From: Isoptericola halotolerans
Lineage (GTDB): Bacteria > Actinomycetota > Actinomycetes > Actinomycetales > Cellulomonadaceae
Assembly: GCF_013149785.1 (NCBI RefSeq)
Contig: NZ_JABEZU010000002.1
Coordinates: 62,001-126,000, forward strand
DNA: 64,000 nucleotides
Reading direction: 5' to 3'
The first letter of the stretch is position 1. Each line of letters starts with the position of its first letter. Positions 1 to 26,589 of this stretch are shown here, one piece after another. A program made the translations under genes and the position numbers. Under the pieces are notes generated by a model. That model made no database searches, had not been told where the DNA came from, and saw only the letters and a list, made by a program, of their open reading frames with translations.

Positions 1-371
1 AGCGTCGCGAGGAGGCCGAGACCCGCAACCAGGCGGAGTCCTTCGCCTACTCGATGGAGAAGCAGATCGCGGACAACCGCGACAAGCTCCCCGCCGACGT
101 CGTCACCGAGGTGGAGGCGGACATCGCCGGCGTCAAGACCGCCCTGGAGGGCGAGGACGCCGACGCCGTGAAGACCGCCTACGAGAAGCTCGGCGCCTCC
201 TCGCAGAAGATCGGTGAGGCCCTGTACTCGGCCGAGCAGGCCGCGGGTGCCGGTGCCGGTGCCGAGGGCGCGGCGGCCGGCGACGCGCCGTCGTCGGAGT
301 CGAAGGACTCCGACGAGGACGTCGTGGACGCCGAGATCGTGGACGACGAGGACGACAAGGACCGCAAGTGA
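1..371 (+). CDS. dnaK: DnaK (Hsp70) chaperone, 3' end only
   Basis: This is the C-terminal end of Hsp70, entering from the left edge; the reading frame begins at base 3. The visible ~122 residues carry the helical lid (RNQAESFAYSMEKQ, then 'LPADVVTEVEADIAGVKTAL') followed by a Gly/Ala-rich linker and a very acidic tail (EDVVDAEIVDDEDD), which is typical of actinobacterial DnaK. DnaK binds exposed hydrophobic peptides in an ATP-dependent cycle with DnaJ and GrpE in the cytoplasm. The stop codon overlaps the grpE start by 4 nt, so it is the first gene seen of a dnaK-grpE-dnaJ-hspR operon. The ATPase domain and promoter lie outside the window. Confidence 0.97.
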   Translation, partial: RREEAETRNQAESFAYSMEKQIADNRDKLPADVVTEVEADIAGVKTALEGEDADAVKTAYEKLGASSQKIGEALYSAEQAAGAGAGAEGAAAGDAPSSESKDSDEDVVDAEIVDDEDDKDRK

Positions 372-3192: not shown

Positions 3193-3981
3193 TCAGCGGC
3201 GCAGGTGCTTGATCAGGTCGAGGGCGGACTCGTGCGTCTCCGGGAGCCGCTCCACCCAGACCCGCACCGGGCGGCGCAGGCTCTCCGAGACGCCCAGCAC
3301 CTCGGCGTTGCGCTCCACGATGATGCGGACCGACTGTGCGAGCCGGGTCGTCTCGGTGCCGCGCTCGCAGAGCACCGCGAACACGCCGTCGCTCAGCGCC
3401 GCCATCGGGTGGCCGGGTCCGAACACCTGGTCCAGGGTGTTGCCGACCGATGCCGCCCGCGCCATGCGCTGCCACGCCCCGAGCGAGTCCACCGCGACGT
3501 CGAGCACAACCAGGCAGTGGGTGCCGGGCACGCCCTCGTCGTCGGTCGCGCGGCCGTACGTCTCACGGAGCCGTTCGCCGAGGTAGTCCGCCGTCGGGAG
3601 CCCGGTCGCCGGATCCCGGACCCCGGTCGGTGCGGGGTCGCGTTCGCGGACCTGTACCCAGCCTTGCGCGGCGCCGCGCACGGCGTCGACGTCGAGAGGT
3701 TCCCCCAGGGAGCGGTACAGGCACGCGAGGTCGTCCAGCGTCTCGTCCAGGCCGATGCCCGCAGCGCTGCGGGCCGTGCCCAGCCGGTGTGATGCCATCT
3801 CGGGGGAGCGTCCGGCCACGAGGGCCTCGACGAGGGCGTCCACGGCGGGGTGGTACCAGTCGCCAGGACGCAGCCACACCTCGGTCAGGCTGGCCGTGCG
3901 CCAGCGCTCACGGGTGTCGGCGGCGGGTGCGCCGCTGGTGGGGATGCTCATGGTGGTGGGAGTTCCATAGGCCTCCATCAT
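3193..3981 (-). CDS. Degenerate GGDEF-like domain protein
   Basis: A 262-residue soluble protein. The C-terminal half (residues ~120-262) has the fold signature of a diguanylate cyclase: 'DPATGLPTADYL' matches the D-x-L-TGL-x-N start of GGDEF domains. Where the catalytic 'GGDEFAVL' should be, the sequence reads 'SDGVFAVL' (residues 197-204). The key Gly-Gly and acidic residues are therefore lost, and cyclase activity is unlikely. The N-terminal ~115 residues are helical and unrecognised. ATG at 3951 (MSIPTS) is an alternative start; neither site has a clear ribosome-binding site. It is divergent from the sigma-factor fusion gene, sharing a 117-bp upstream region that holds an inverted repeat. 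Confidence 0.7.
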   Translation of the reverse strand: MMEAYGTPTTMSIPTSGAPAADTRERWRTASLTEVWLRPGDWYHPAVDALVEALVAGRSPEMASHRLGTARSAAGIGLDETLDDLACLYRSLGEPLDVDAVRGAAQGWVQVRERDPAPTGVRDPATGLPTADYLGERLRETYGRATDDEGVPGTHCLVVLDVAVDSLGAWQRMARAASVGNTLDQVFGPGHPMAALSDGVFAVLCERGTETTRLAQSVRIIVERNAEVLGVSESLRRPVRVWVERLPETHESALDLIKHLRR

Positions 3982-4005
3982 GACGCAGTTTCGCCGGACC
4001 GGTGC

Positions 4006-4034
4006 GGGTGAATCCGGTCACGAGCGGTTCACCC
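4006..4034. promoter_or_regulatory. Inverted repeat in the divergent GGDEF-like / sigma-fusion promoter region
   Basis: GGGTGAA (4006-4012) and TTCACCC (4028-4034) are separated by 15 nt. They lie between the two divergent start codons and ahead of TAAAGT (4069-4074), a possible -10 for the rightward gene. A regulator binding here could control both genes. Evidence is limited to symmetry and position. Confidence 0.4.
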
Positions 4035-4098
4035 TCCGTTCGCCCTGTCCCGGGCCGCAGTTCAGGCGTAAAGTGGCCGCGTCTGCGTCGGCCTCGGT

Positions 4099-7000
4099 GT
4101 GGACGCTCGCGGGGGTGGGGACGAAGAAGCGGATGGCGACGTGACCGACGTCTACGTGGGTTCGGACGGGACAGCTCCCAGCGACGGCGAGCTGATCCTC
4201 GAGGTGCGCGGCGGGAGCCTCGACGCCTACGGCGCCCTCTACGAACGGCACGCCGCGGCCGCCCAGCTCCTGGCCCGCCAGTACGTCACGACGGTCAGCG
4301 ACGCCGACGACGTCGTCTCCGACGCGTTCCACCGCGTGCTCGGTGTGCTCCAGAAGGGCGACGGGCCCGACACCCACTTCCGGGCCTACCTGTTCACGGT
4401 CGTGCGCCGCCTCGCCGCCGACGCGTCGCGCCGTGCCCGGCGCACCCGGCCGACGGCGGACGACGGGACGTTCGAGTCGGCGCTCGGGTCGTCGGCCTCT
4501 CCCGAGGACCCGACGCTCGCGGGGTTCGAGAACACCGTCGTCGCGCGCGCCTACCAGCTGCTGCCCGAACGGTGGCAGGCGGTCCTCTGGTACACCGAGA
4601 TCGAGCAGATGTCCCCCGCGCAGGTCGCGCCGATCCTCGGGCTCACCCCCAACGGCGTCTCCGCGCTCGCCTACCGGGCCCGCGAAGGCCTGCGTGCCGG
4701 GTACCTGCAGCAGCACCTCACCGCGGAGCCTGCCGACTCCTGCCGTGCCGTCAACTCCCTGCTCGGCAGCTACGTCCGAGGGAGCCTGTCGCGCCGCGAG
4801 GTCATCCAGGTGGACGGCCACCTCGACGGGTGCGGCGACTGCCGCGCTCTCGTGCTCGAGCTGGCCGACGTGGCCCACGGGATGCGCGCCGTCATCGCGC
4901 CGTTGGTGGTCGGCCTGGCAGGGTTGGTCGTGCTGGGGTCGCTGCCGCTCGGACTCGGCGCCGGTGGTGTGGCCGCGGGCGCTGCGGCCGGGACCGCAGG
5001 AGCAGCGTCGGGCTCGGTCGGTGCCGCGAGCTCGGGGCTGGGTGCCGGTGCGGGCGCGGCCACCGGGACCGCCGGTACGGCGAGCGGTGCCGCTGTGGGG
5101 AGCGGTGCTGGGGCGGCGACGGCCGCCACCACCGCGACGGCCACGGCGACCGCCACCACCACGACCACCGCGGTCGCCGCGACGACGGCCGGGATCTCCG
5201 GGGCGACCGTGGCGGCCTCGACCGGCGCCGTGGCCGTCGCGACCGTCGGCGTCGTCAGCGTCCTGGGAGCCCTGGGCGGGGGCGAGGAACCCCCGCTCGT
5301 GCCGGACGAGCCGCCCTACGCGGTCGCGAGCGAGCCGTGGCCTTCCGACGGTGAGGCGCTGCCCGACGACGAGCCCCTGCCGGACGACGAGGCGCTGCCC
5401 GAGCCTGCTCCCGAACCGAGCGACGTCCCCGGGGCCGACCCCAGCAACGTGCCGCCGTTCCTGCAGGACGCCGGGCTCCTCCCTGCCGAGGTCCTGGAGC
5501 CCGCTCAGGTGTCCGTGGCGGTCGTGGACCCGGGTCTCGGGCTGGAGCCCCGCGTCACCGAGAACCTCACGCTGCACGTCCAGAACCCGGGCGAGGCCGA
5601 GGCCCCGGGGTCCTACCTGCGGCTCGTCCTCCCCGAGGGGATGCGGTCCGTGAACGCCTTCTCGTCAGCCGGTGCCTCGGTGGCGAGCAACCTGACGTCC
5701 GGGCCGCTCCCGTGCACCCCGACCGACGTACCGCAAGAGGTCGTGTGCTCGCTCGGGACGCTCGCGGCCGGTGAGTCGCGCACGCTGTCCGTCCCGCTCG
5801 TCGTGCGCTCCGGCGGTTCGTACGCGGTCACCGCGCACACCTGGGCCGACGGTGTGGCACCGCAGAGTGTCGCCCTCGCGCCGGTCCGGGTCGCGAACTT
5901 CGGGCCGGAGCTCACCGCGCGGGCCGCGGGGACCGCGACCGTGGCGAACCCCGGCCTCACCGAGGTCGCCTTCACCGTGGAGAACAGCGGTGACGAGCCG
6001 GTCGACGCCGGGTGGACGGCAAGGGTCAGGGTGCCCGCCGGGCTCGTGCCGCGCGCCGTCGACGGCGGCCTCGCCTGCGAGACGCTCGGCACACCGGCCG
6101 ACGACGGCGCTGTCGGCTGGTCGTGCACGGGTGGGGCGCTCGCTCCCGGTGAGTCCACCTCCGGGCGGGTGACCGTCCTCGCCGACGGCACCACGGCGCC
6201 CGGCGCCTACGACGTGCGCGTCGTGCCCGTGCTGCCCGACGACCGACCCACCGTGCGTGCGGTCACGGTCGTCAGCGCGCCGCGGGCGTGGGAGGGCGCC
6301 AGCGGCGGGGCCGGGGCCATCCAGGCGACCTGCCTCGCGACCGGTGGCGTGTCCACGGCCGACGCCGCCGTGGTGGCCACGTACACCAACCGCACCGGTC
6401 AGACGGTGGGGATGGAGCTCGACGTCGCCGGGACGAAGCTGGCCTCCAGCAGCCTGCTCGCACCGGGGGAGTCGGTCACCCTCACCGCCCACGACGGGAT
6501 CAGGGTCCCTGCCGGTGCCGGCAGCTGGACGCTCTCGACCGTGGTCGGTGGCGAGACGTACACCCGGACGGTCGACGCCGGGGCGCACGGCGCCGCCGAG
6601 TGCTACGACCCGAGCTGGGACGTGCGGACCACCACCGCCGTGCTCAACGACGGCGGCAAGGTGCGGGTGGAGGGCGCGATCACCAACCTGACCAGCGAGC
6701 CCATGCAGGCGTCGATGACGGTCGCGGGTGGACGCACCGACGCGGTGCGGCTCGGCGCCGGCGAGACCGTCACCCTGGGCCGCACCACCGACCGGACCAG
6801 CCTCCCCGCCGGCACCGCGACCTTCTCCCTGTACCGGTGGGTGACCGACGCCGACGGCGACCAGCCGAGCACCGGCGTCGTCCCTGCCAAGGCCCCGACC
6901 GCCGAGCACGGTGCCGCGACGATCGCACCGCGGGCCGGTGCTGCCGAAGCGGTGGCCTCCTGCACCTACGACGCCGCGGCCGAGACCTCGTGGCGGACCT

Positions 7001-8106
7001 TCGCCGTCCCGGTCGACAACACGCGGTCGACGCTCCCGGTCGTCTTCGTGGCGCGGGCCGGTGACAGCACGAAGCAGCTCCGCGTGCCGGCCGGCGAGCA
7101 GGGCACGATCGAGATGCGCGTCGCCTGGGGCACCAGGACCGGGACGGTCACAGCCGACGGCGCCCACCTGCGTGACCTGGACGTCGGCTTCGCGAGCTGT
7201 GCCGAGAGCCCGCCGTGGCCCGACGGCGTCGTCGTCGGCGCCGAGGCCCGCTGCGACGCCGGCAACGCCCAGGTCGTCGTCGACGTCGCGGGCGGGGACC
7301 GCCGCTCCTGGACCGCCACGCTCCTGCGCCACGGCGCGACCGTCGAGTCGCGCAGGCTCGACGCCGGTGGCACGGTCCGGTTCGTGGTCGACACCGGGTC
7401 GTGGCGGACGCGAGCGGGAACCGTCACCGTCATGCTCGAGCGCACGGTCGAGGGCAACACGTTCGCCGTCGAGCGCACCGTGGAGCACGACGCGGTGCGC
7501 TGCATCGTGCGCGACCCGCGGGCGCGACTGGACCCGGGCGCCGTCCAGATGGACCGCTACGGCGACTACGCGACGTCGTGGCGGGAGGTCGGCGTCGTGC
7601 TCGACAACACCGGGTCGACCGTGCGTACCCGGTTCCACGTGACCGGCCCCCACGGCGTCGACGAGACGGTCACCGTCCCGGCGGGTGCCGAGCGGACGAT
7701 CGCCCCCCGGCGGGTCGACGGTCGCCAGGGTGGCGCCTGGACCGTGTCGTCACGGGACTGGTCGACACGGCTCGAGACCGGGACCTTCACCGCCGCCGAG
7801 GCCGGTTGGTGCGGTGAACGCGTGGCGTGGGGCGAGAAGTACTCCGAGGGCGACGTCCGGTCCTGGAACGGGAAGGCCTACCGCTACCTCGGCTGGGACG
7901 GCACCCGCCCCGGCGGTGAGCCCGGCGAGAGCCGTGAGCGTGGCGACGGCGCCGAGCGGGGCAAGAGCGCCGAGCGTGGCAAGAGCACCGAGCGTGGGAA
8001 CGGCGGGAACCGCCCCGGACACTGGTACGACGACGAGCAGTGGCGCGGCGTGTGGATGGGCCAGTGGCACCAGTGGGGCGAGACCGGGCTCTGCGAGTAC
8101 CGCTGA
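4099..8106 (+). CDS. Fusion: ECF sigma factor + zinc anti-sigma domain + hydrophobic segment(s) + long repeat region with lectin-like tail
   Basis: A 1335-residue protein. Residues ~40-90 are sigma-70 region 2 ('DADDVVSDAFHRVLGVL') and ~145-205 are region 4 ('LPERWQAVLWYTEIEQMSP', 'LGLTPNGVSALAYRAREGL'). A ZAS-type anti-sigma zinc motif follows directly: C215, H241, C245, C248 (HLDGCGDC). A hydrophobic helix spans ~264-285, then a ~110-residue Gly/Ala/Thr linker with a second hydrophobic stretch (~370-393), then an acidic Pro-rich spacer. Beyond ~460 are beta-rich repeats of ~90-120 residues. The later ones are delimited by cysteines (C835, C955, C1034, C1052, C1135, C1238). The tail (~1238-1335) resembles CBM5/12 ('YSEGDVRSWNGKAYRYLGWD'). 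It looks like a membrane-held sigma factor with its own extracellular sensor. Topology depends on whether the second stretch crosses the membrane. GTG 4141 is an alternative start. Confidence 0.88.
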   Translation: MDARGGGDEEADGDVTDVYVGSDGTAPSDGELILEVRGGSLDAYGALYERHAAAAQLLARQYVTTVSDADDVVSDAFHRVLGVLQKGDGPDTHFRAYLFTVVRRLAADASRRARRTRPTADDGTFESALGSSASPEDPTLAGFENTVVARAYQLLPERWQAVLWYTEIEQMSPAQVAPILGLTPNGVSALAYRAREGLRAGYLQQHLTAEPADSCRAVNSLLGSYVRGSLSRREVIQVDGHLDGCGDCRALVLELADVAHGMRAVIAPLVVGLAGLVVLGSLPLGLGAGGVAAGAAAGTAGAASGSVGAASSGLGAGAGAATGTAGTASGAAVGSGAGAATAATTATATATATTTTTAVAATTAGISGATVAASTGAVAVATVGVVSVLGALGGGEEPPLVPDEPPYAVASEPWPSDGEALPDDEPLPDDEALPEPAPEPSDVPGADPSNVPPFLQDAGLLPAEVLEPAQVSVAVVDPGLGLEPRVTENLTLHVQNPGEAEAPGSYLRLVLPEGMRSVNAFSSAGASVASNLTSGPLPCTPTDVPQEVVCSLGTLAAGESRTLSVPLVVRSGGSYAVTAHTWADGVAPQSVALAPVRVANFGPELTARAAGTATVANPGLTEVAFTVENSGDEPVDAGWTARVRVPAGLVPRAVDGGLACETLGTPADDGAVGWSCTGGALAPGESTSGRVTVLADGTTAPGAYDVRVVPVLPDDRPTVRAVTVVSAPRAWEGASGGAGAIQATCLATGGVSTADAAVVATYTNRTGQTVGMELDVAGTKLASSSLLAPGESVTLTAHDGIRVPAGAGSWTLSTVVGGETYTRTVDAGAHGAAECYDPSWDVRTTTAVLNDGGKVRVEGAITNLTSEPMQASMTVAGGRTDAVRLGAGETVTLGRTTDRTSLPAGTATFSLYRWVTDADGDQPSTGVVPAKAPTAEHGAATIAPRAGAAEAVASCTYDAAAETSWRTFAVPVDNTRSTLPVVFVARAGDSTKQLRVPAGEQGTIEMRVAWGTRTGTVTADGAHLRDLDVGFASCAESPPWPDGVVVGAEARCDAGNAQVVVDVAGGDRRSWTATLLRHGATVESRRLDAGGTVRFVVDTGSWRTRAGTVTVMLERTVEGNTFAVERTVEHDAVRCIVRDPRARLDPGAVQMDRYGDYATSWREVGVVLDNTGSTVRTRFHVTGPHGVDETVTVPAGAERTIAPRRVDGRQGGAWTVSSRDWSTRLETGTFTAAEAGWCGERVAWGEKYSEGDVRSWNGKAYRYLGWDGTRPGGEPGESRERGDGAERGKSAERGKSTERGNGGNRPGHWYDDEQWRGVWMGQWHQWGETGLCEYR

Positions 8107-8784: not shown

Positions 8785-8790
8785 ACCGTA
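8785..8790 (-). promoter_or_regulatory. Leaderless -10 box of upp
   Basis: TACGGT on the minus strand, 6 nt before ATG 8778. Transcription would start at the A of the start codon. Confidence 0.55.
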
Positions 8791-8815
8791 CCGGGGTGAC
8801 CGGGGCCGGGGACGC

Positions 8816-8852
8816 CGAAGGGCCCGGCCGGTGCTCCCGGCCGGGCCCTTCG
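8816..8852 (-). terminator. Hairpin terminator of the LALTG surface-protein gene
   Basis: A 16-bp perfect stem (CGAAGGGCCCGGCCGG at 8816-8831, partner 8837-8852) with a 5-nt loop lies 30 nt past the stop of the 8882-10711 gene and before upp. A near-identical stem head, GAAGGGCCC...GGGCCCTTC, also ends the tRNA-Ser unit at 26.6 kb. Confidence 0.85.
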
Positions 8853-8881
8853 TGTCAGGGGATCATCCCTGAGTCAGCTGG

Positions 8882-10711
8882 TCAGCTCTCCTGCAGGCGG
8901 CGACGCACGACGAACAGCGTCACACCGCCGGCGATCAGCAGGAGCGCCACGACGGCCGCGATCCCGACGGTCGCGCCCGTGAGGGCGAGCTCGTCCTCCG
9001 CCGCGACCTCCTGGGCACGCACGGTGTCGTCGTCCTCGGGGATGTCCACGACGGTCTGGGCGGCCGGGCCACGGACGTTGTCCGGAGCGTCGGCGCAGTC
9101 CTCGGAGGCCGCCGGGTAGTCCACGATCGTGGAGTAGTCCGGGTTCACCTCGAAGAGGACCTGGACGGCCTCGCGCGTCCACGCGAAGTTGTCGTCGGTC
9201 TCGACGTAGGAGCCGTCCTCGAGCTGCTCCCAGCCCGGCCACTGCAGCGGCTCGGTGGCCGAGGCGCCCGGCCAGAGCAGACGACCCTCCAGCGGGAGGT
9301 CGGTGGTGACGTGGTTCTCACCGTCCGGGTTGAGGAACGAGATCGTCAGCGGGTTGTCGCTGTCCGCCTCGGCACCCTCCGGCAGGATGACCTCGTAGGC
9401 GAGGTACGGCGAGCCGCTCTCGCACACCGCGTTGATGTCACCGGGGGTCAGCTCGGCGGCAGGCTCCTCGGTCGCGCACGGCTCGTCGGTGAAGGTGGCC
9501 TCGCTCACCGGGTAGAGAGCCGTCCCGTCTTCCTGCAGCGTGTACTCCGCAGGCAGCTCACCGAGCGTGTTGCCTTCGGTGGCGGTGGCGAGGACGCCCT
9601 CCGAGACCTTCTCGTAGGTGACCTCGTCGGTGTTCTCGGGCAGCTCGACGTCGTCGTTCTCGGTGCCGCACAGGTCCACGACGGTCGGCACGTCGGGTGT
9701 CACGACGACCGGCTCCGACTCGCAGAGCTCGCCGGTGAAGTCGAAGGTCCACTCGAGCGCGGTGCCCTCGGCGGGCACGACGCCCTCGGCCGGGACAGCG
9801 GTGACCGTCACGCTGGTGCGGTCCTCGGTCCACACCTCGGTGTAGGTCGCGAGGTCGGTCGCCGGCAGGGTGACGGTGTTCTCGACCTCGCAGTCCTCGA
9901 CGAACGAGGGCGCGGGGATGGCGACGGGCTCCGGCGTCTCCGGCTCCTCGGGGTCCGGCGGCGTCTCCTCGGAGCACGCGGGCAGGTACTTGCTCAGCTC
10001 GGAGTGCTCGGCCTTCCTGAGGTCCTTGAACAGCGGGCCGTGGGGGTACGTGATGTGAACGTAGTCCGACCACTTGAAGCCCCAGTGGATGCCCACCGTG
10101 TCCTGCTGGACACCCCAGGCCTCGCAGACGTCGGCCGGCAGCAGGCTCTCGTCGAAGTGCTTCCCCGGGAACTCTTCCGGGAGCGTCGTCCAGAACTCGT
10201 CGCCGTCCCGCGTCGCGATGAGCGTCTGCTTGCCCGAGTTCTTCCAGGCGGCATCCTCGTTCGGGTCCAGCTTCGGGTAGACGTAGAACGCCGTCTCGAT
10301 CTTCCGCTCGGGGGCCGAGCAGGCCTTGGTCGTGCCGCGGTCCGTGAAGTCGAACTCGGTGCCGTTGTCACCGTCCCAGGCGTCTACCGTGACGGTCCAC
10401 TCGTTCGACCGGGTCGGGTCGAGCTTTATCGTCTTCTTGAAGGAGTGGCCGAAGGTCTGCGAGACCTGCTTGGCCCCGTTGACCTCGACAGTCACCTTGT
10501 TGACCTTGGGCCCGTGGCCGTGGCCGTTGCCCTTGCCCTTGCCGATGCCCTTGCCAGGGCCGTAGCTCGTTGCGTAGTGCTGCAGGTCGACAGTCAGGCT
10601 CTTGCAGGTCGCGCTGACCTTCGGCGTGTGCGCGGAGGCCGGCATCGCGGTGGCGACGAGCCCTCCGAGTGCGAGCGCGGCCGTGGCGACGCTCGCGAGG
10701 ATTCTCTTCAC
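8882..10711 (-). CDS. Secreted, sortase-anchored (LALTG) surface protein
   Basis: A 609-residue cell-wall protein of unknown function. Residues 1-27 are a Sec signal peptide ending 'AMPASA'. The mature part starts with a ~200-residue domain holding a Gly/Lys/His-rich segment (KGIGKGKGNGHGHGPK) that might bind metal or polyanion. Acidic Pro-rich linkers and beta-rich modules with paired cysteines follow. The C-terminus has the full sorting signal: LALTG at 575-579, a hydrophobic helix, then RRRLQES. LAXTG is the motif preferred by class E sortases of high-GC actinobacteria. No sortase gene lies in the window. The start is GTG 10711 with AAGGGA upstream. It is divergent from tadA. Confidence 0.88.
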   Translation of the reverse strand: MKRILASVATAALALGGLVATAMPASAHTPKVSATCKSLTVDLQHYATSYGPGKGIGKGKGNGHGHGPKVNKVTVEVNGAKQVSQTFGHSFKKTIKLDPTRSNEWTVTVDAWDGDNGTEFDFTDRGTTKACSAPERKIETAFYVYPKLDPNEDAAWKNSGKQTLIATRDGDEFWTTLPEEFPGKHFDESLLPADVCEAWGVQQDTVGIHWGFKWSDYVHITYPHGPLFKDLRKAEHSELSKYLPACSEETPPDPEEPETPEPVAIPAPSFVEDCEVENTVTLPATDLATYTEVWTEDRTSVTVTAVPAEGVVPAEGTALEWTFDFTGELCESEPVVVTPDVPTVVDLCGTENDDVELPENTDEVTYEKVSEGVLATATEGNTLGELPAEYTLQEDGTALYPVSEATFTDEPCATEEPAAELTPGDINAVCESGSPYLAYEVILPEGAEADSDNPLTISFLNPDGENHVTTDLPLEGRLLWPGASATEPLQWPGWEQLEDGSYVETDDNFAWTREAVQVLFEVNPDYSTIVDYPAASEDCADAPDNVRGPAAQTVVDIPEDDDTVRAQEVAAEDELALTGATVGIAAVVALLLIAGGVTLFVVRRRLQES

Positions 10712-19348: not shown

Positions 19349-19365
19349 TGGCGAGGTGACGACCC

Positions 19366-19420
19366 TTGACGGAAAGGTGGGAATGCGATTACCGTGTGAG
19401 AAACCGGTTTCTCACACGGT
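19366..19420 (+). promoter_or_regulatory. Promoter with a 30-bp perfect palindromic operator (LacI type) for the PL9 gene
   Basis: TTGACG (19366-19371) is a good -35. A 17-nt spacer leads to a -10 near 19389-19394 (TTACCG). A perfect 30-bp palindrome at 19391-19420, arm ACCGTGTGAGAAACC, covers the -10 and the expected start site. Its core GAAACCGGTTTC, with a central CG, is the LacI/GalR-family signature. Repression relieved by a pectin-derived sugar is the likely logic. The regulator gene is not in the window. Confidence 0.75.
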
Positions 19421-19460
19421 CGTTCGACGACGAACGACACATGTCTCGACGAGGAGATCC

Positions 19461-22400
19461 ATGTCATCCACCAGACTCAGGGCGACCGTGGCCGCGGTGA
19501 CCGCCGCCGTGCTCGCCGCCACCTCGATCAGCGCGGCAGCAGCCGCCGGCGCGGAGACCGCGTTCCGTGCCGACGACCTCGCCCCCGGCGCGTACACCAG
19601 CGACGTCGTCGCCGGGGACTTCATCGTCAAGGCCGCCCAGGGCAGCGGCGTCGACGTCGACGGCACCAGCCGCACCTCCGACCGCGGCGAGGCGTTCACC
19701 CAGCGGCTCAAGCTCAACGGTTCCGGGACGGCCGAGCACCGCTCGCTGCAGTTCTCCGTCGACGCCGCCACCGACGTCGTCGTCCACGCGCGCAGCGGCA
19801 GCGGCACCGCCGACCGCGCCCTCGCGCTCTTCGACGAGTCGTGGGCCGTCGTCGACACCGTCCCGGCGCTCGCCGACGACTCGCGGACCCCCGTCGCGAC
19901 CGAGATCCTCGAGGTCCCCGCGGCCGGCACCTACTGGCTCGCCTCGCCCAGCTCGGGGGTCAACGTCTACGCAGCACAGATCGGGCGCGACGACGAGGTC
20001 GAGCGCGCGCCGTGGGTGGACGTCGCCGCACCCGTCGTCGAGGACGTCACCACCGACGCGGACCACCCGGCCCGGCTCGCGGTCTCCTACCACGGGCACG
20101 TCGGCACCGACGGCGCCGACATCGCCCACGCCCTGCTGCTCGACGCCGAGGGCGGGATCGTCGACCGGGCGTTCACCGCGACCCCGGGAGACGGCGGCAC
20201 GATCCGGCTGACGCCGCCGGGCTCGGGGAGCTACGAGGTCGAGGTCCGGCTGACCCGCTCCGGCGAGACCGACGCGCTCAGCTCGCCGCGCGTCGCCGCC
20301 CCGGACTTCTCCCTGCCTCTGGTCGCCCCCGAGGTCACCAGCGCGCTGACCAGCGCCGTCGACGGCGACCAGGCCACCGTCGCGCTCGTGTGGTCGGCCG
20401 TCCCCGAGGCCGAGAGCTACTCCGTGTCGACCAGCCAGGACGGCGAGTTCAGCACCGTCGTCGACGGCGTGACGGGGACCTCCGCCGACGTGCCCGGGTT
20501 CACGGCGGGGGAGACCTACCAGGTCCGCGTGACCGCGCACCGCGGCGACGACCGGACGACCGGCCCGGCGTACGACGTCGAGGTCGCCGGCGCCGTCGAA
20601 CGCTGGCAGTCCGCCGACGTCGGCTCCAACGCCGGGTCCGGCGGCTCGGTGACCGACAACGGCGACGGGACCATCACCTTCGACGCCCGGGCCAGCTCCA
20701 CCAAGCTCGCCTCCTCCGAGGACGGCTTCCAGTACTACTTCACGCGGATCGACCCCGAGACCGAGAACTTCACCCTGACCGCGACGTTCCACGTGGACGA
20801 CGCCTCGGCCAAGGACAACCAGTCCGGGTTCGGCGTGATCGCCCTCGACGACCTCGTCACCGAGTCCTCCCCGCACCGGTACTTCAACTCCGCCGGTGCG
20901 CTGGTGACTCGCTACGGCACCGCGCCGGACTTCGTCAACGGCACCCCGGGCGCCCGGTGGGTGCAGGGATACACCGGTGCCACCGACGACAACACCGCCG
21001 GCGCGCGGTACCAGGACGACTCGGTCGAGTTCGACCCCGAGTACCGCACCGAGGCCGGTACGGCGGCGAAGTTCGAGACCGGGGACGTCTACGAGCTCAG
21101 CCTGCGCCGGTCGAACACCGGATTCCACGCGACGTGGCACCGCGACGGTGACGACGACGTCGCGGTCATCCACTACGACCCCGAGATGCTGCTGCAGCAG
21201 AACGGCGACGAGCTCTACGTCGGCATGGCCGTGGCCCGCAAGATCGCCGTGACCGTCACCGACTGGCAGCTCACCACCGTCCACCCCGACGACGACGAGG
21301 CGGCGCAGGAGCCACCCACGCGCTACGTGCCGACCACCCTGTCGGTGGACGTCACGCCCACCACCCCCGAGAGCGAGCTCGACCTGCCGCTGGTGACGAA
21401 CTTCTACGGCACCGGGCAGATCCTCGACGCCGACGGCGACGTCGTCGTCGACGGGCTGGAGCTCGAGCCCGGCGAGCAGCAGCTCGGCACCGTGGCCCTG
21501 GAGGCCGGGGTCAACGAGTTCACCGCGCGCGCCGTGCCGGGGGACGACCAGCCGCACCTGCGCGAGCGCGAGGAGCTGGAGTCCACCGACCCGGTCGAGA
21601 CCGCGGTCACCATCACCGTCGACTCCTACGGGCAGCCCGGCGAGTCGATCCGCGTGGCACCCGACGGCACGCCCGACGGCGACGGCACCGACGAGAGCCC
21701 GCTCGACCTCCACACGGCCGTCGGGTTCGCCCAGCCCGGTCAGCAGATCGTGCTGGACGGCGGGACGTACCGCCCGACGTCGGCGGTGGTGGCGCACCGC
21801 GGCCGCAGCGGGACCCCGGACGCCCCGATCACGCTGATGTCCGCCCCCGGCGAGCGCGCCGTGCTGGACCTCAACGACTCACGAGGCGGCGGGATCATCA
21901 TCCGCGGCGACTGGTGGCACGTGTACGACCTCGAGGTCACCGGCTCCCGGGACAAGGAGAAGCCGATGCTCGTCCAGGGCCACCACAACGTGGTCGAGCG
22001 GGTCGAGGCGCACCACAACCGCGACACCGGCATCCAGATCTCCGGCTCGGAGTCCGAGCCTCCCTCGATGTGGCCCACGCACAACCTCGTGGTCTCCTCG
22101 GTGTCGCACAACAATGCCGACGACGCCAAGAACGACGCCGACGGTTTCGCCGCGAAGCTCACCGTCGGCGAGGGCAACGTGTTCCGGTACAACATCGCGC
22201 ACCACAACATCGACGACGGCTGGGACCTGTTCGCCAAGTCGACCACCGGGCCCATCGGCACGGTGGTCGTCGAGGACTCCGTCGCGTACGACAACGGGTG
22301 GCTCGAGTCCGACCCGACCGACATCGGCGAGGGCAACGGGTTCAAGCTCGGCGGCGAGTCCATGCCGGGCGACCACCTGCTGCGCAACTCCGTGGCGTAC

Positions 22401-23207
22401 GGCAACGCCGGCGTCGGCGTCTCGTCGAACTCCGGCCCGGACATCCGGCTCGACGGCGTCACGACCGTCGACAACGCCCGGGGCGTCCGCCTGGAGACCA
22501 ACGCCGCCACCAGCGCCTACGAGGCCGCTGGGGTGATGTCCTGGAACACCGCGTCGGACGCGCTCGGGCTCAAGCAGGACGACACCTCGATGCTGACCGA
22601 CCCGACGAACTACTTCAGCGGGACGGCGCAGGACGCCTCGGACGGGCGACCCGCCGCCGTCGACGCCGACTGGTTCGTCACCCGGGACACCGAGAACCTG
22701 CGCCCGGAGATCGCCGCGGACGGGTCGATCGAGATGCACGGCCTGTACGAGCTGACGGACGTGGCGCCGTCGGACACCGGTGCTCGGCTGACCGCGAACC
22801 CGGACCCGACCGTCGTCGAGCTGCTGCCGCCGGTCTCCGGCGACGGCGCCGAGCCCGGTCCCGCTCCCTGGTACGCGACCGGCGTCTACCTGGCCGGCGA
22901 CGTCGTCCAGCACGACGGCGTGGTCTACGAGGCCCGGTGGTGGACCCGCAACCAGGAGCCGGGCGACACCGTCACCCGGGGCCGGTCGCACGTCGAGGCG
23001 ACCGGCCCGTGGGCCGAGGTCGGCCCCGCCGAGGCGGCTCCCGCCGTCGTCGGGTGCGCAGAGGCCTGGGATCCCGCGACCGTGTACCGCGGCGGGGAGC
23101 TCGTGGCGCACGACGGCGTGAACCACCACGCGCTGTGGTGGACGACCGGGCAGGAGCCCGGGACCGACCCCTGGGGAGCCTGGTCCGCCGTGGGGCCGTG
23201 CGCGTGA
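19461..23207 (+). CDS. Secreted PL9-family pectate lyase with Fn3-like and two CBM5/12-like modules
   Basis: A 1248-residue extracellular enzyme. ATG 19461 has a GAGGAGATCC ribosome-binding site and begins a signal peptide ending near 'AAAAAGAETA'. Residues ~100-400 are beta-sandwich modules, the last Fn3-like ('SALTSAVDGDQATVALVWSA'). Residues ~400-620 form a beta-jellyroll-like domain. A right-handed beta-helix (~730-1080) has the PL9 signature 'NNADDAKNDADGFAAKLTVG', whose Asp cluster (D887, D888, D892, D894) suits calcium and whose K899 fits the PL9 catalytic lysine; 'DDGWDLFAK' follows. Two C-terminal chitin-binding-like modules ('YLAGDVVQHDGVVYEARWW', 'VYRGGELVAHDGVNHHALWW') finish it. 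Action: calcium-dependent beta-elimination of polygalacturonate. Confidence 0.92.
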   Translation: MSSTRLRATVAAVTAAVLAATSISAAAAAGAETAFRADDLAPGAYTSDVVAGDFIVKAAQGSGVDVDGTSRTSDRGEAFTQRLKLNGSGTAEHRSLQFSVDAATDVVVHARSGSGTADRALALFDESWAVVDTVPALADDSRTPVATEILEVPAAGTYWLASPSSGVNVYAAQIGRDDEVERAPWVDVAAPVVEDVTTDADHPARLAVSYHGHVGTDGADIAHALLLDAEGGIVDRAFTATPGDGGTIRLTPPGSGSYEVEVRLTRSGETDALSSPRVAAPDFSLPLVAPEVTSALTSAVDGDQATVALVWSAVPEAESYSVSTSQDGEFSTVVDGVTGTSADVPGFTAGETYQVRVTAHRGDDRTTGPAYDVEVAGAVERWQSADVGSNAGSGGSVTDNGDGTITFDARASSTKLASSEDGFQYYFTRIDPETENFTLTATFHVDDASAKDNQSGFGVIALDDLVTESSPHRYFNSAGALVTRYGTAPDFVNGTPGARWVQGYTGATDDNTAGARYQDDSVEFDPEYRTEAGTAAKFETGDVYELSLRRSNTGFHATWHRDGDDDVAVIHYDPEMLLQQNGDELYVGMAVARKIAVTVTDWQLTTVHPDDDEAAQEPPTRYVPTTLSVDVTPTTPESELDLPLVTNFYGTGQILDADGDVVVDGLELEPGEQQLGTVALEAGVNEFTARAVPGDDQPHLREREELESTDPVETAVTITVDSYGQPGESIRVAPDGTPDGDGTDESPLDLHTAVGFAQPGQQIVLDGGTYRPTSAVVAHRGRSGTPDAPITLMSAPGERAVLDLNDSRGGGIIIRGDWWHVYDLEVTGSRDKEKPMLVQGHHNVVERVEAHHNRDTGIQISGSESEPPSMWPTHNLVVSSVSHNNADDAKNDADGFAAKLTVGEGNVFRYNIAHHNIDDGWDLFAKSTTGPIGTVVVEDSVAYDNGWLESDPTDIGEGNGFKLGGESMPGDHLLRNSVAYGNAGVGVSSNSGPDIRLDGVTTVDNARGVRLETNAATSAYEAAGVMSWNTASDALGLKQDDTSMLTDPTNYFSGTAQDASDGRPAAVDADWFVTRDTENLRPEIAADGSIEMHGLYELTDVAPSDTGARLTANPDPTVVELLPPVSGDGAEPGPAPWYATGVYLAGDVVQHDGVVYEARWWTRNQEPGDTVTRGRSHVEATGPWAEVGPAEAAPAVVGCAEAWDPATVYRGGELVAHDGVNHHALWWTTGQEPGTDPWGAWSAVGPCA

Positions 23208-26499: not shown

Positions 26500-26589
26500 G
26501 GTAGCGTGTCCGAGCGGCCGAAGGTGCAGCACTCGAAATGCTGTGTGGTGTCAAAGCCACCGTGGGTTCAAATCCCACCGCTACCGCCA
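26500..26589 (+). tRNA. tRNA-Ser, anticodon CGA
   Basis: The acceptor stem GGTAGCG (26500-26506) pairs with CGCTACC (26579-26585). The anticodon arm CAGCA-CTCGAAA-TGCTG places anticodon CGA at 26534-26536, reading UCG (Ser). A long variable arm (class II tRNA, as expected for Ser) and a T-arm with GTTCAAAT follow. The discriminator G26586 is followed by an encoded CCA (26587-26589). Mature gene body 26500-26586. A strong terminator follows immediately. Confidence 0.97.

Follow-up and report, generated by a model that had tools for sequence, protein, structure and literature searches.

The 64,000-nucleotide stretch of Isoptericola halotolerans DNA analysed here (contig NZ_JABEZU010000002.1, positions 62,001 to 126,000; hereafter the window) contains a gene that joins, in a single chain, a sigma factor of the extracytoplasmic function (ECF) type, a zinc-binding anti-sigma (ZAS) domain, two hydrophobic segments and seven beta modules, and that diverges from a conserved partner gene headed by a two-part promoter-like element. 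The plan of sigma factor, ZAS, membrane segment and exported sensor is known; this is a larger, conserved version of it, with a partner gene and a promoter-like element. Our preferred reading, to which we give a probability of about two in three, is that the product is a membrane-held, self-inhibited ECF sigma factor, which proteolysis releases once an external signal arrives and which acts on the partner gene. Coordinates are collected in Table 1, and residues are numbered in the 1,321-residue protein starting at 4141 unless counting from 4099 is stated.

That sigma factor, anti-sigma and sensor form one polypeptide, as the original prediction had claimed, was borne out. The open frame from 4099 to 8106 (+) is single, 1,335 aa counted from its first start, and of the 18 genus genomes, that of the window included, 13 have it at full length, as do 13 of 20 other genera. 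In most orthologues MTDVYVGS or a similar string can serve as the beginning, so that the real start is probably the GTG 14 codons after 4099; an AGGAG start-site pattern gave no match. Third-position GC amounts to 0.87-0.97 in 18 of 18 blocks of 75 codons across the frame, which therefore bears no frameshift signature. A joining of separate genes by frameshift or assembly error would find some comfort in the contigs of five relatives, which end within or near the gene; the orthologues' full-length frames and the even third-position GC rule it out for practical purposes, and we accord it hardly any probability.

The predicted sigma regions 2 and 4 were recovered by profile comparison. Sigma70_r2 (Pfam, 2.9e-10) and the NCBIfam sigma70-ECF model TIGR02937 (66.3 bits for a cut-off of 42.9) are above their cut-offs, so that the ECF profile is matched, and Sigma70_r4_2 stays below its own (1.1e-04, 22.1 bits, cut-off 25.7). 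The zinc motif noted earlier also has its cysteines in place (215, 245 and 248, counted from 4099), within a zf-HC2 match of 2.9e-08; DUF11 is matched at 2.3e-05. The sigma-ZAS part is the most conserved of the protein, with a mean column identity of 70% versus 26% for the ectodomain, and the ZAS domain and the first hydrophobic segment (H1) are strongly conserved among orthologues.

Searches in genus and family, for which the first 400 residues served as query, found the gene to be widespread. A strong match (at least 230 bits) occurred in 16 of the 18 genus genomes, the genome of the window included, with open frames of 1,307-1,410 aa in 13; three matches are cut at contig ends (G005, G013, G015), and the gene was not found in G010 and in the 74%-complete G016. 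The family draw yielded matches of at least 315 bits for 16 of 21 genomes, that is for 15 of 20 other genera. Frames of 950-1,612 aa were present in 13 of these 15 genera, those of G020 and G022 stopping at a contig end; no gene was found in G021, G029, G032, G034 and G036. A contig scan, of which the best 80 of at least 580 relatives were kept, returned mainly Promicromonosporaceae, Cellulomonadaceae, Demequina, Luteimicrobium and Pseudonocardiaceae; NCBI places Isoptericola in the first of these families. For loci L187-L202, which came from further searches, the analysis covered the hit positions. The same architecture, which had been proposed for a search in relatives, was thus found across genera, including Micrococcales, and a tree of 104 sigma-ZAS rows agrees broadly with taxonomy.

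About 950 residues follow the second hydrophobic segment (TM2), and they comprise an acidic, Pro-rich spacer, two DUF11-like modules (D1, D2), five immunoglobulin-like (Ig-like) modules (R1-R5) and a tail. Besides the ZAS set the protein has 12 cysteines, kept as six pairs in most orthologues. In the order 525/536, 646/662, 731/821, 941/1020, 1038/1121 and 1224/1318, these pairs are intact in 26, 25, 20, 20, 19 and 17 of 26 orthologues, and only one partner is lost in 0, 0, 2, 3, 2 and 1. Of 83 unique complete proteins of the family, 81 have an even number of cysteines after TM2, zero in two of them (paralogues and the protein L176, discussed below, are counted; truncated frames, identical copies, frames under 500 aa and those with less than 150 aa after TM2 are not). 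The exceptions are L136, a short frame with one cysteine, and L160, with seven. A coin-toss figure for such parity is 4e-22, which ignores kinship and is a guide only. The cytoplasmic part has mixed cysteine numbers, three in 35 of the 83 proteins. Parity and paired loss speak for disulfides and for modules outside the cell; the outside, cysteine-bearing beta repeats of the original prediction are in this way supported in their exported position and resolved into seven all-beta modules.

A structure model of the ectodomain (residues 440-1321, from an alignment of 26) is nearly all beta, with a mean confidence (pLDDT) of 87.2 and a global score (pTM) of 0.45, so that the modules appear well predicted and their mutual placing uncertain; model residues 820-852, a charged insert of the tail, fall below a pLDDT of 50. 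Foldseek returned 218 PDB matches at E<=0.001, of which the best 50 are mostly large proteins made of Ig-like strings, with 7-12% identity and TM-scores of 0.09-0.21 by query. They come from the axonemal central apparatus, mastigonemes, complement and alpha-2-macroglobulin, with one S-layer protein. Given the low identities and TM-scores, the matches would reflect a common module fold, neither kinship nor a global match. Within the string, with module borders set by hand, profile comparison linked D1 to D2 (98.4%), R1, R2 and R4 to one another (94-96%) and R3 to R5 (96.8%); R1-R3 reached 44.6% and all remaining pairs at most 17%.

How the chain crosses the membrane has to be read from its two hydrophobic segments. 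The helix originally predicted at about 264-285 is present, as H1 at 264-282 (both counted from 4099), and a second stretch, TM2 at 371-389 on the same count, had been overlooked. Both are 19-mers (mean hydropathy 2.44 and 2.02) and both are kept in complete family members. The Gly/Ala/Thr linker between them was correctly recognised; it is charge-free in the window protein, about 90-160 residues long in the genus, and has a median of 84.5 (range 30-244) in the family, where misplaced TM2 calls may inflate the longest values. Exported modules require an odd number of spanning segments. In Pseudonocardiaceae the linker carries two or three K/R and no D/E (13 of 13 loci), and in the genus the first 40 residues past TM2 contain 5-10 D/E and 0-1 K/R (12 of 12 full-length relatives), the charge picture around TM2 being mixed in the rest of the family. 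For these reasons we favour TM2 as the spanning helix, and H1 may dip into the membrane or pack on the anti-sigma domain.

The divergent partner gene starts 189 bases from the fusion gene and is present in 108 of 109 loci, or 99 of 100 after removal of identical regions (the exception is L171). Among 60 genomes of the class, that of the window included, in which at most 44 and 41 first-look candidates were scored per genome, a partner (E<1e-30) occurred in G000, G091, G092 and G107. These are the same four whose best sigma-ZAS match is below 1e-90, and the two genes are adjacent and divergent in each; eleven other genomes have sigma-ZAS matches of 1e-30 to 1e-79 and no partner at 1e-8. A profile built from 35 of the partners matched, among solved structures, the GGDEF protein 7e6g (E 3.2e-5), and seven weaker matches were again of GGDEF type or PA0861. 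Pfam and NCBIfam gave weak matches only, far from cut-offs and some of them GGDEF-like, and no family model names the partner. Because of this profile relation, and with the GG[DE]EF signature absent from all 35 aligned partners (0/35), the partner is, by its sequence, a degenerate GGDEF-like protein.

Just before the partner gene lies an element whose common form, GCGTCAT-N17-GTCTCA, is ECF-like. GCGTCA occurs on the partner strand in 93 of 100 distinct regions versus 9.7 after shuffling. A strict rule (GCGTCA and GTCYC, 15-20 bases apart) retains 32 of 100 regions, always with 18 bases between, versus 0.35 in shuffles; a loose, hand-made -10 rule, for which no shuffle serves as comparison, retains 90. 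The -10 part, which does not resemble a housekeeping -10, reads GTCTCA or GTCCCA in many Micrococcales, and several Pseudonocardiaceae have CGTC or CGTT instead. Since only a few bases lie between its end and the start codon, the partner mRNA would be leaderless. In a scan of 864 kb of the 3.97-Mb genome (22%), the window copy scored best, with 22.7 bits. From the position and conservation of the element, we infer that the fused sigma factor reads the partner promoter. For the fusion gene itself, 28 of 100 regions contain a candidate housekeeping-type -10 of the form TAnAGT at 30-130 bases upstream, versus 3.3 (at most 8) in shuffles. Eight of 110 regions, including two from one genome (L037 and L092), have the palindrome between the two genes in its exact form, which occurs at one place in the searched genome sequence; TTCACCC alone occurs in 51 of 110 regions versus 2.0 shuffled.

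In the mechanism that we propose, the cytoplasmic ZAS domain would keep the sigma2/sigma4 of its own chain inactive. The membrane would be spanned once, more likely by TM2 than by H1, with the C-terminal side outside, and the seven beta modules, of which five have a conserved cysteine pair, would reach outwards in a string to an exchangeable tip. An outside event (a tip ligand, force or wall damage) would be the trigger, whereupon the chain would be cut at the membrane, the N-terminal piece freed and its anti-sigma domain removed or opened. This piece may guide RNA polymerase to a few promoters; that of the partner gene is the foremost candidate, and the degenerate-GGDEF product of this gene could serve for feedback or output. 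Of the two modes of release in the original prediction, proteolysis appears plausible, as published fused systems are expected to use it: proteolytic regulation is expected for ECF48, ECF52 and ECF53, and proteolytic release is described as characterised for the fused IutY (PMC8999054).

Several observations weigh against this reading. The -10 part in the window deviates from the common form (CTCCCA versus GTCTCA). The 864 kb contained three element matches, the partner's own and two others (19.8 and 17.1 bits), and gap-shifted controls gave 0-1 matches each, the best at 18.9 bits. The fused ZAS may be structural rather than inhibitory. In the genus the positive-inside rule gives no guidance, the linker being nearly uncharged, and the linker of the paralogue L181 has no K/R. 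Finally, there are two conserved hydrophobic segments, and if both spanned, the modules would lie in the cytoplasm. With regard to the ZAS, a review of class I anti-sigma domains with zinc motifs suggests that the motif can have a structural role (PMC7406223).

The last arrangement, with H1 and TM2 both spanning, agrees with the conservation and hydropathy of the two 19-mers; we hold it improbable, since cysteine numbers are even in 81 of 83 proteins and are lost in pairs, the modules are of DUF11 and Ig-like types, and the flank after TM2 is acidic in the genus. More room has to be given, though still as an unlikely event, to a conformational switch without cleavage, in which outside binding or tension loosens the ZAS and the sigma factor stays at the membrane. 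No recognisable cleavage site is present in the fusion protein, and the strong conservation of ZAS and H1 would suit such a switch; against it, we know of no strong precedent for a membrane-held sigma factor reaching RNA polymerase. For ECF52, release by a proteolytic cascade or by a conformational change has been proposed (PMC5826349), and the fused IutY uses proteolysis (PMC8999054). It is very doubtful that the protein organises the surface or wall and that its sigma part is vestigial: this would account for the large repeat-built ectodomain, and an S-layer protein is among the best 50 of 218 Foldseek rows, but sigma-ZAS is the most conserved part and a conserved divergent gene with a promoter-like element adjoins.

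A variant of proteolytic release, which we regard as a long shot, would have the fused sigma factor lose its own anti-sigma without being destroyed. After the membrane cut, an AAA+ protease would pull the chain from its new end and slip on the Gly/Ala/Thr linker; the folded sigma part would survive as the active fragment and fire the leaderless, ECF-like partner promoter, and the degenerate-GGDEF partner would feed back on it. Next to a folded domain, Gly-rich tracts can cause ClpXP to fail, so that partly processed products are released (PMC6677533), and polyglycine is reported to be slippery, Gly-Ala repeats not, these acting otherwise (PMC9531181). The idea is weakened by the position of the linker beyond the ZAS, which might leave the brake on the surviving piece. 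We know of no use of a Gly-rich slippery tract in a sigma factor; if true, the arrangement would be a self-contained signalling module.

The original prediction had taken the SigI/RsgI systems of Clostridium as its parallel, and sigmaI is not known to be an ECF sigma factor. Although that of Clostridium thermocellum also couples an outside sensor to a sigma factor and involves RseP cleavage (PMC12203970), it consists of separate proteins, unlike the single frame of the window, and it is not the nearest relative in plan; one-chain sigma and anti-sigma are already published for ECF48, ECF52, ECF53 and IutY/ECF243 (PMC8999054, PMC5826349). IutY of Pseudomonas putida likewise has sigma factor and membrane anti-sigma in one chain and is freed by Prc and RseP; it is described in iron-siderophore cell-surface signalling, without a string of Ig-like modules (PMC8999054). 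In ECF53 and ECF48, too, a zinc finger and one or two membrane helices are fused C-terminally to the sigma factor, with extensions described as up to 400 residues (PMC8999054) versus about 1100 in the window protein, which may belong to ECF53 or to another of the published groups. The first characterised ECF52 member, as it is called, SCO4117 of Streptomyces coelicolor, has a zinc finger, a membrane segment, a Pro-rich part and a carbohydrate-binding module (CBM) in a single chain (PMC5826349), and the predicted sugar-related domains of ECF52/53 are said to await experimental validation (PMC10766802).

The window protein is likewise actinobacterial, with sigma2/sigma4, a fused zinc finger, membrane segment(s), a Pro-rich part and an exported module, whereas the SCO4117 type is shorter and ends in one CBM instead of carrying seven beta modules. 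One ECF52 trait, the fused zinc finger with membrane segment, is found in it; for a second, the long proline-rich extension, an 80-residue acidic, Pro-rich spacer is the only putative counterpart. For a third, smart00776, which we take to be NPCBM, Pfam gave no match in the window protein at E<=10, and NPCBM is not among the best 25 of 29 Pfam families listed for the 26 orthologues. L176 (646 aa, from a 9.2-Mb genome of the class) fits the SCO4117 description, with the only NPCBM match (5.6e-28) in 21 hand-picked ectodomains; no partner gene was found beside it or in its genome. Its sigma-ZAS is far from that of the window protein, on a branch of 4.95 whose place is unsure. In literature searches (sigma + GGDEF, DUF11) no paper on the huge ectodomain or on the GGDEF neighbour came up, a weak sign that none exists. 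Sensors that fuse sigma and anti-sigma are signal systems made of one gene, and only a few of them have been studied; the present sub-group offers a test case, its conserved chassis, exchangeable tips, conserved partner and candidate promoter making promoter choice, release and ligand separable; if the partner promoter is confirmed, one reporter could read out sensor tips.

The tip bears on the polysaccharide signal that had been suggested, for which a CBM5/12-like tail was one argument. The likeness survives weakly and by way of relatives. Pfam found no hit, CBM_5_12 included, in the window tail, and matched CBM_5_12 in 2 of 16 orthologue tails at E<=1 (best 0.0036) and in 2 of the 21 other ectodomains (best 2.1e-6). 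Compared with solved structures, a profile of 16 of the 20 tails (L040, L044, L081 and L084 left out; L040 and L044 are also left out of alignment A7) ranked chitinases first, with E of 0.015, 0.07 and 0.34, and a profile of 11 genus tails gave one chitinase match only (E 0.67). Aligning the tail profile with four CBM5/12 module sequences (hhalign) gave 4.8%, and visual inspection found the Trp pair of true CBM5/12 modules not to be conserved. In Cellulomonas and Demequina, many relatives (L144 and L125, for example) end instead in a common NAFDSTATG...DAKGF...GDQYLIGAVTV; two of the 21 ectodomains, among them L105 (Actinotalea), match DUF3344, which this end weakly resembles. Proteins of Pseudonocardiaceae finish with Pro/Thr-rich stretches, and those of Promicromonospora and Myceligenerans have neither kind of end (all by eye). 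The tip, replaced or missing in relatives, is thus exchangeable, as judged from these alignments; sugar binding by the window tail is putative, and a polysaccharide signal hypothetical.

Table 1. Features of the fusion gene and its divergent partner (positions in the window)
Feature	Position	Strand	Remarks
Partner gene	3193..3951	-	degenerate GGDEF-like domain, 252 aa; alternative start 3981 would overlap its promoter
Promoter-like element of partner gene	3955..3987	-	here TGCGTCAT-N17-CTCCCA; conserved
Palindrome GGGTGAA-N15-TTCACCC	4006..4034		between the two genes
TAAAGT	4069..4074	+	candidate housekeeping-type -10 of fusion gene
Sigma/anti-sigma/sensor fusion gene	4141..8106	+	1321 aa; GTG 4141 probable start; longest frame from 4099
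Sigma70 region 2	4237..4446	+	Pfam
Sigma70 region 4	4546..4686	+	Pfam, below threshold in window protein; match at E<=1 in 26/26 orthologues
Zinc anti-sigma domain (zf-HC2)	4741..4845	+	C-x25-H-x3-C-x2-C; three Cys kept in 26/26 orthologues
Hydrophobic segment H1	4888..4944	+	residues 250-268; conserved
Gly/Ala/Thr linker	4945..5208	+	charge-free, without K, R, D, E
Hydrophobic segment TM2	5209..5265	+	residues 357-375; conserved; favoured spanning helix
Acidic, proline-rich spacer	5266..5505	+	80 residues
DUF11-like modules D1, D2	5506..6285	+	Cys pairs 525/536 and 646/662
Ig-like modules R1-R5	6310..7806	+	Cys pairs 731/821 (R1), 941/1020 (R3), 1038/1121 (R4)
Tail	7807..8103	+	Cys 1224/1318; weakly CBM5/12-like; charged, predicted disordered insert

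Some minor observations remain. The surroundings had been called full of secreted glycan-degrading enzymes; among ten mechanically chosen open reading frames were a beta-helix protein (19356-23207, +), which ends in two CBM5/12, and a GDSL esterase, and four had no hit at 1e-4. BLAST of the window tail against that beta-helix protein gave nothing convincing. At gathering scores, Rfam matched only one tRNA (26500-26586), and 11 pattern matches in viral contigs included no relative. Neither of the two further element matches is claimed as a regulon site: the one at about 589773 of C2 (-), with 19.8 bits, lies just over the best gap-shifted control, and the one at about 434711 (+), with 17.1 bits, below it. 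In L221, a surface protein with an LPVTG end (8790-10514, +) has a weak partner-promoter element upstream (17.1 bits). The partner is kept beside the fusion gene in Micrococcales and Pseudonocardiaceae loci, and upp, tadA, dnaJ and merR were not found near it in 13 Pseudonocardiaceae loci. In G005, G013, G015, G020 and G022 the matched part is broken off by a contig end, in some of them close to the Gly/Ala linker, and because of such ends inside the gene draft assemblies may under-report the fusion protein. The genome of the window also encodes a 687-aa paralogue (L177, 5572-7638, -, at about 441 kb of C2) with sigma-ZAS, hydrophobic segments, a Pro/Thr-rich part and a beta-like end, which forms with six further paralogues a separate clade (100/100) of the sigma-ZAS tree.

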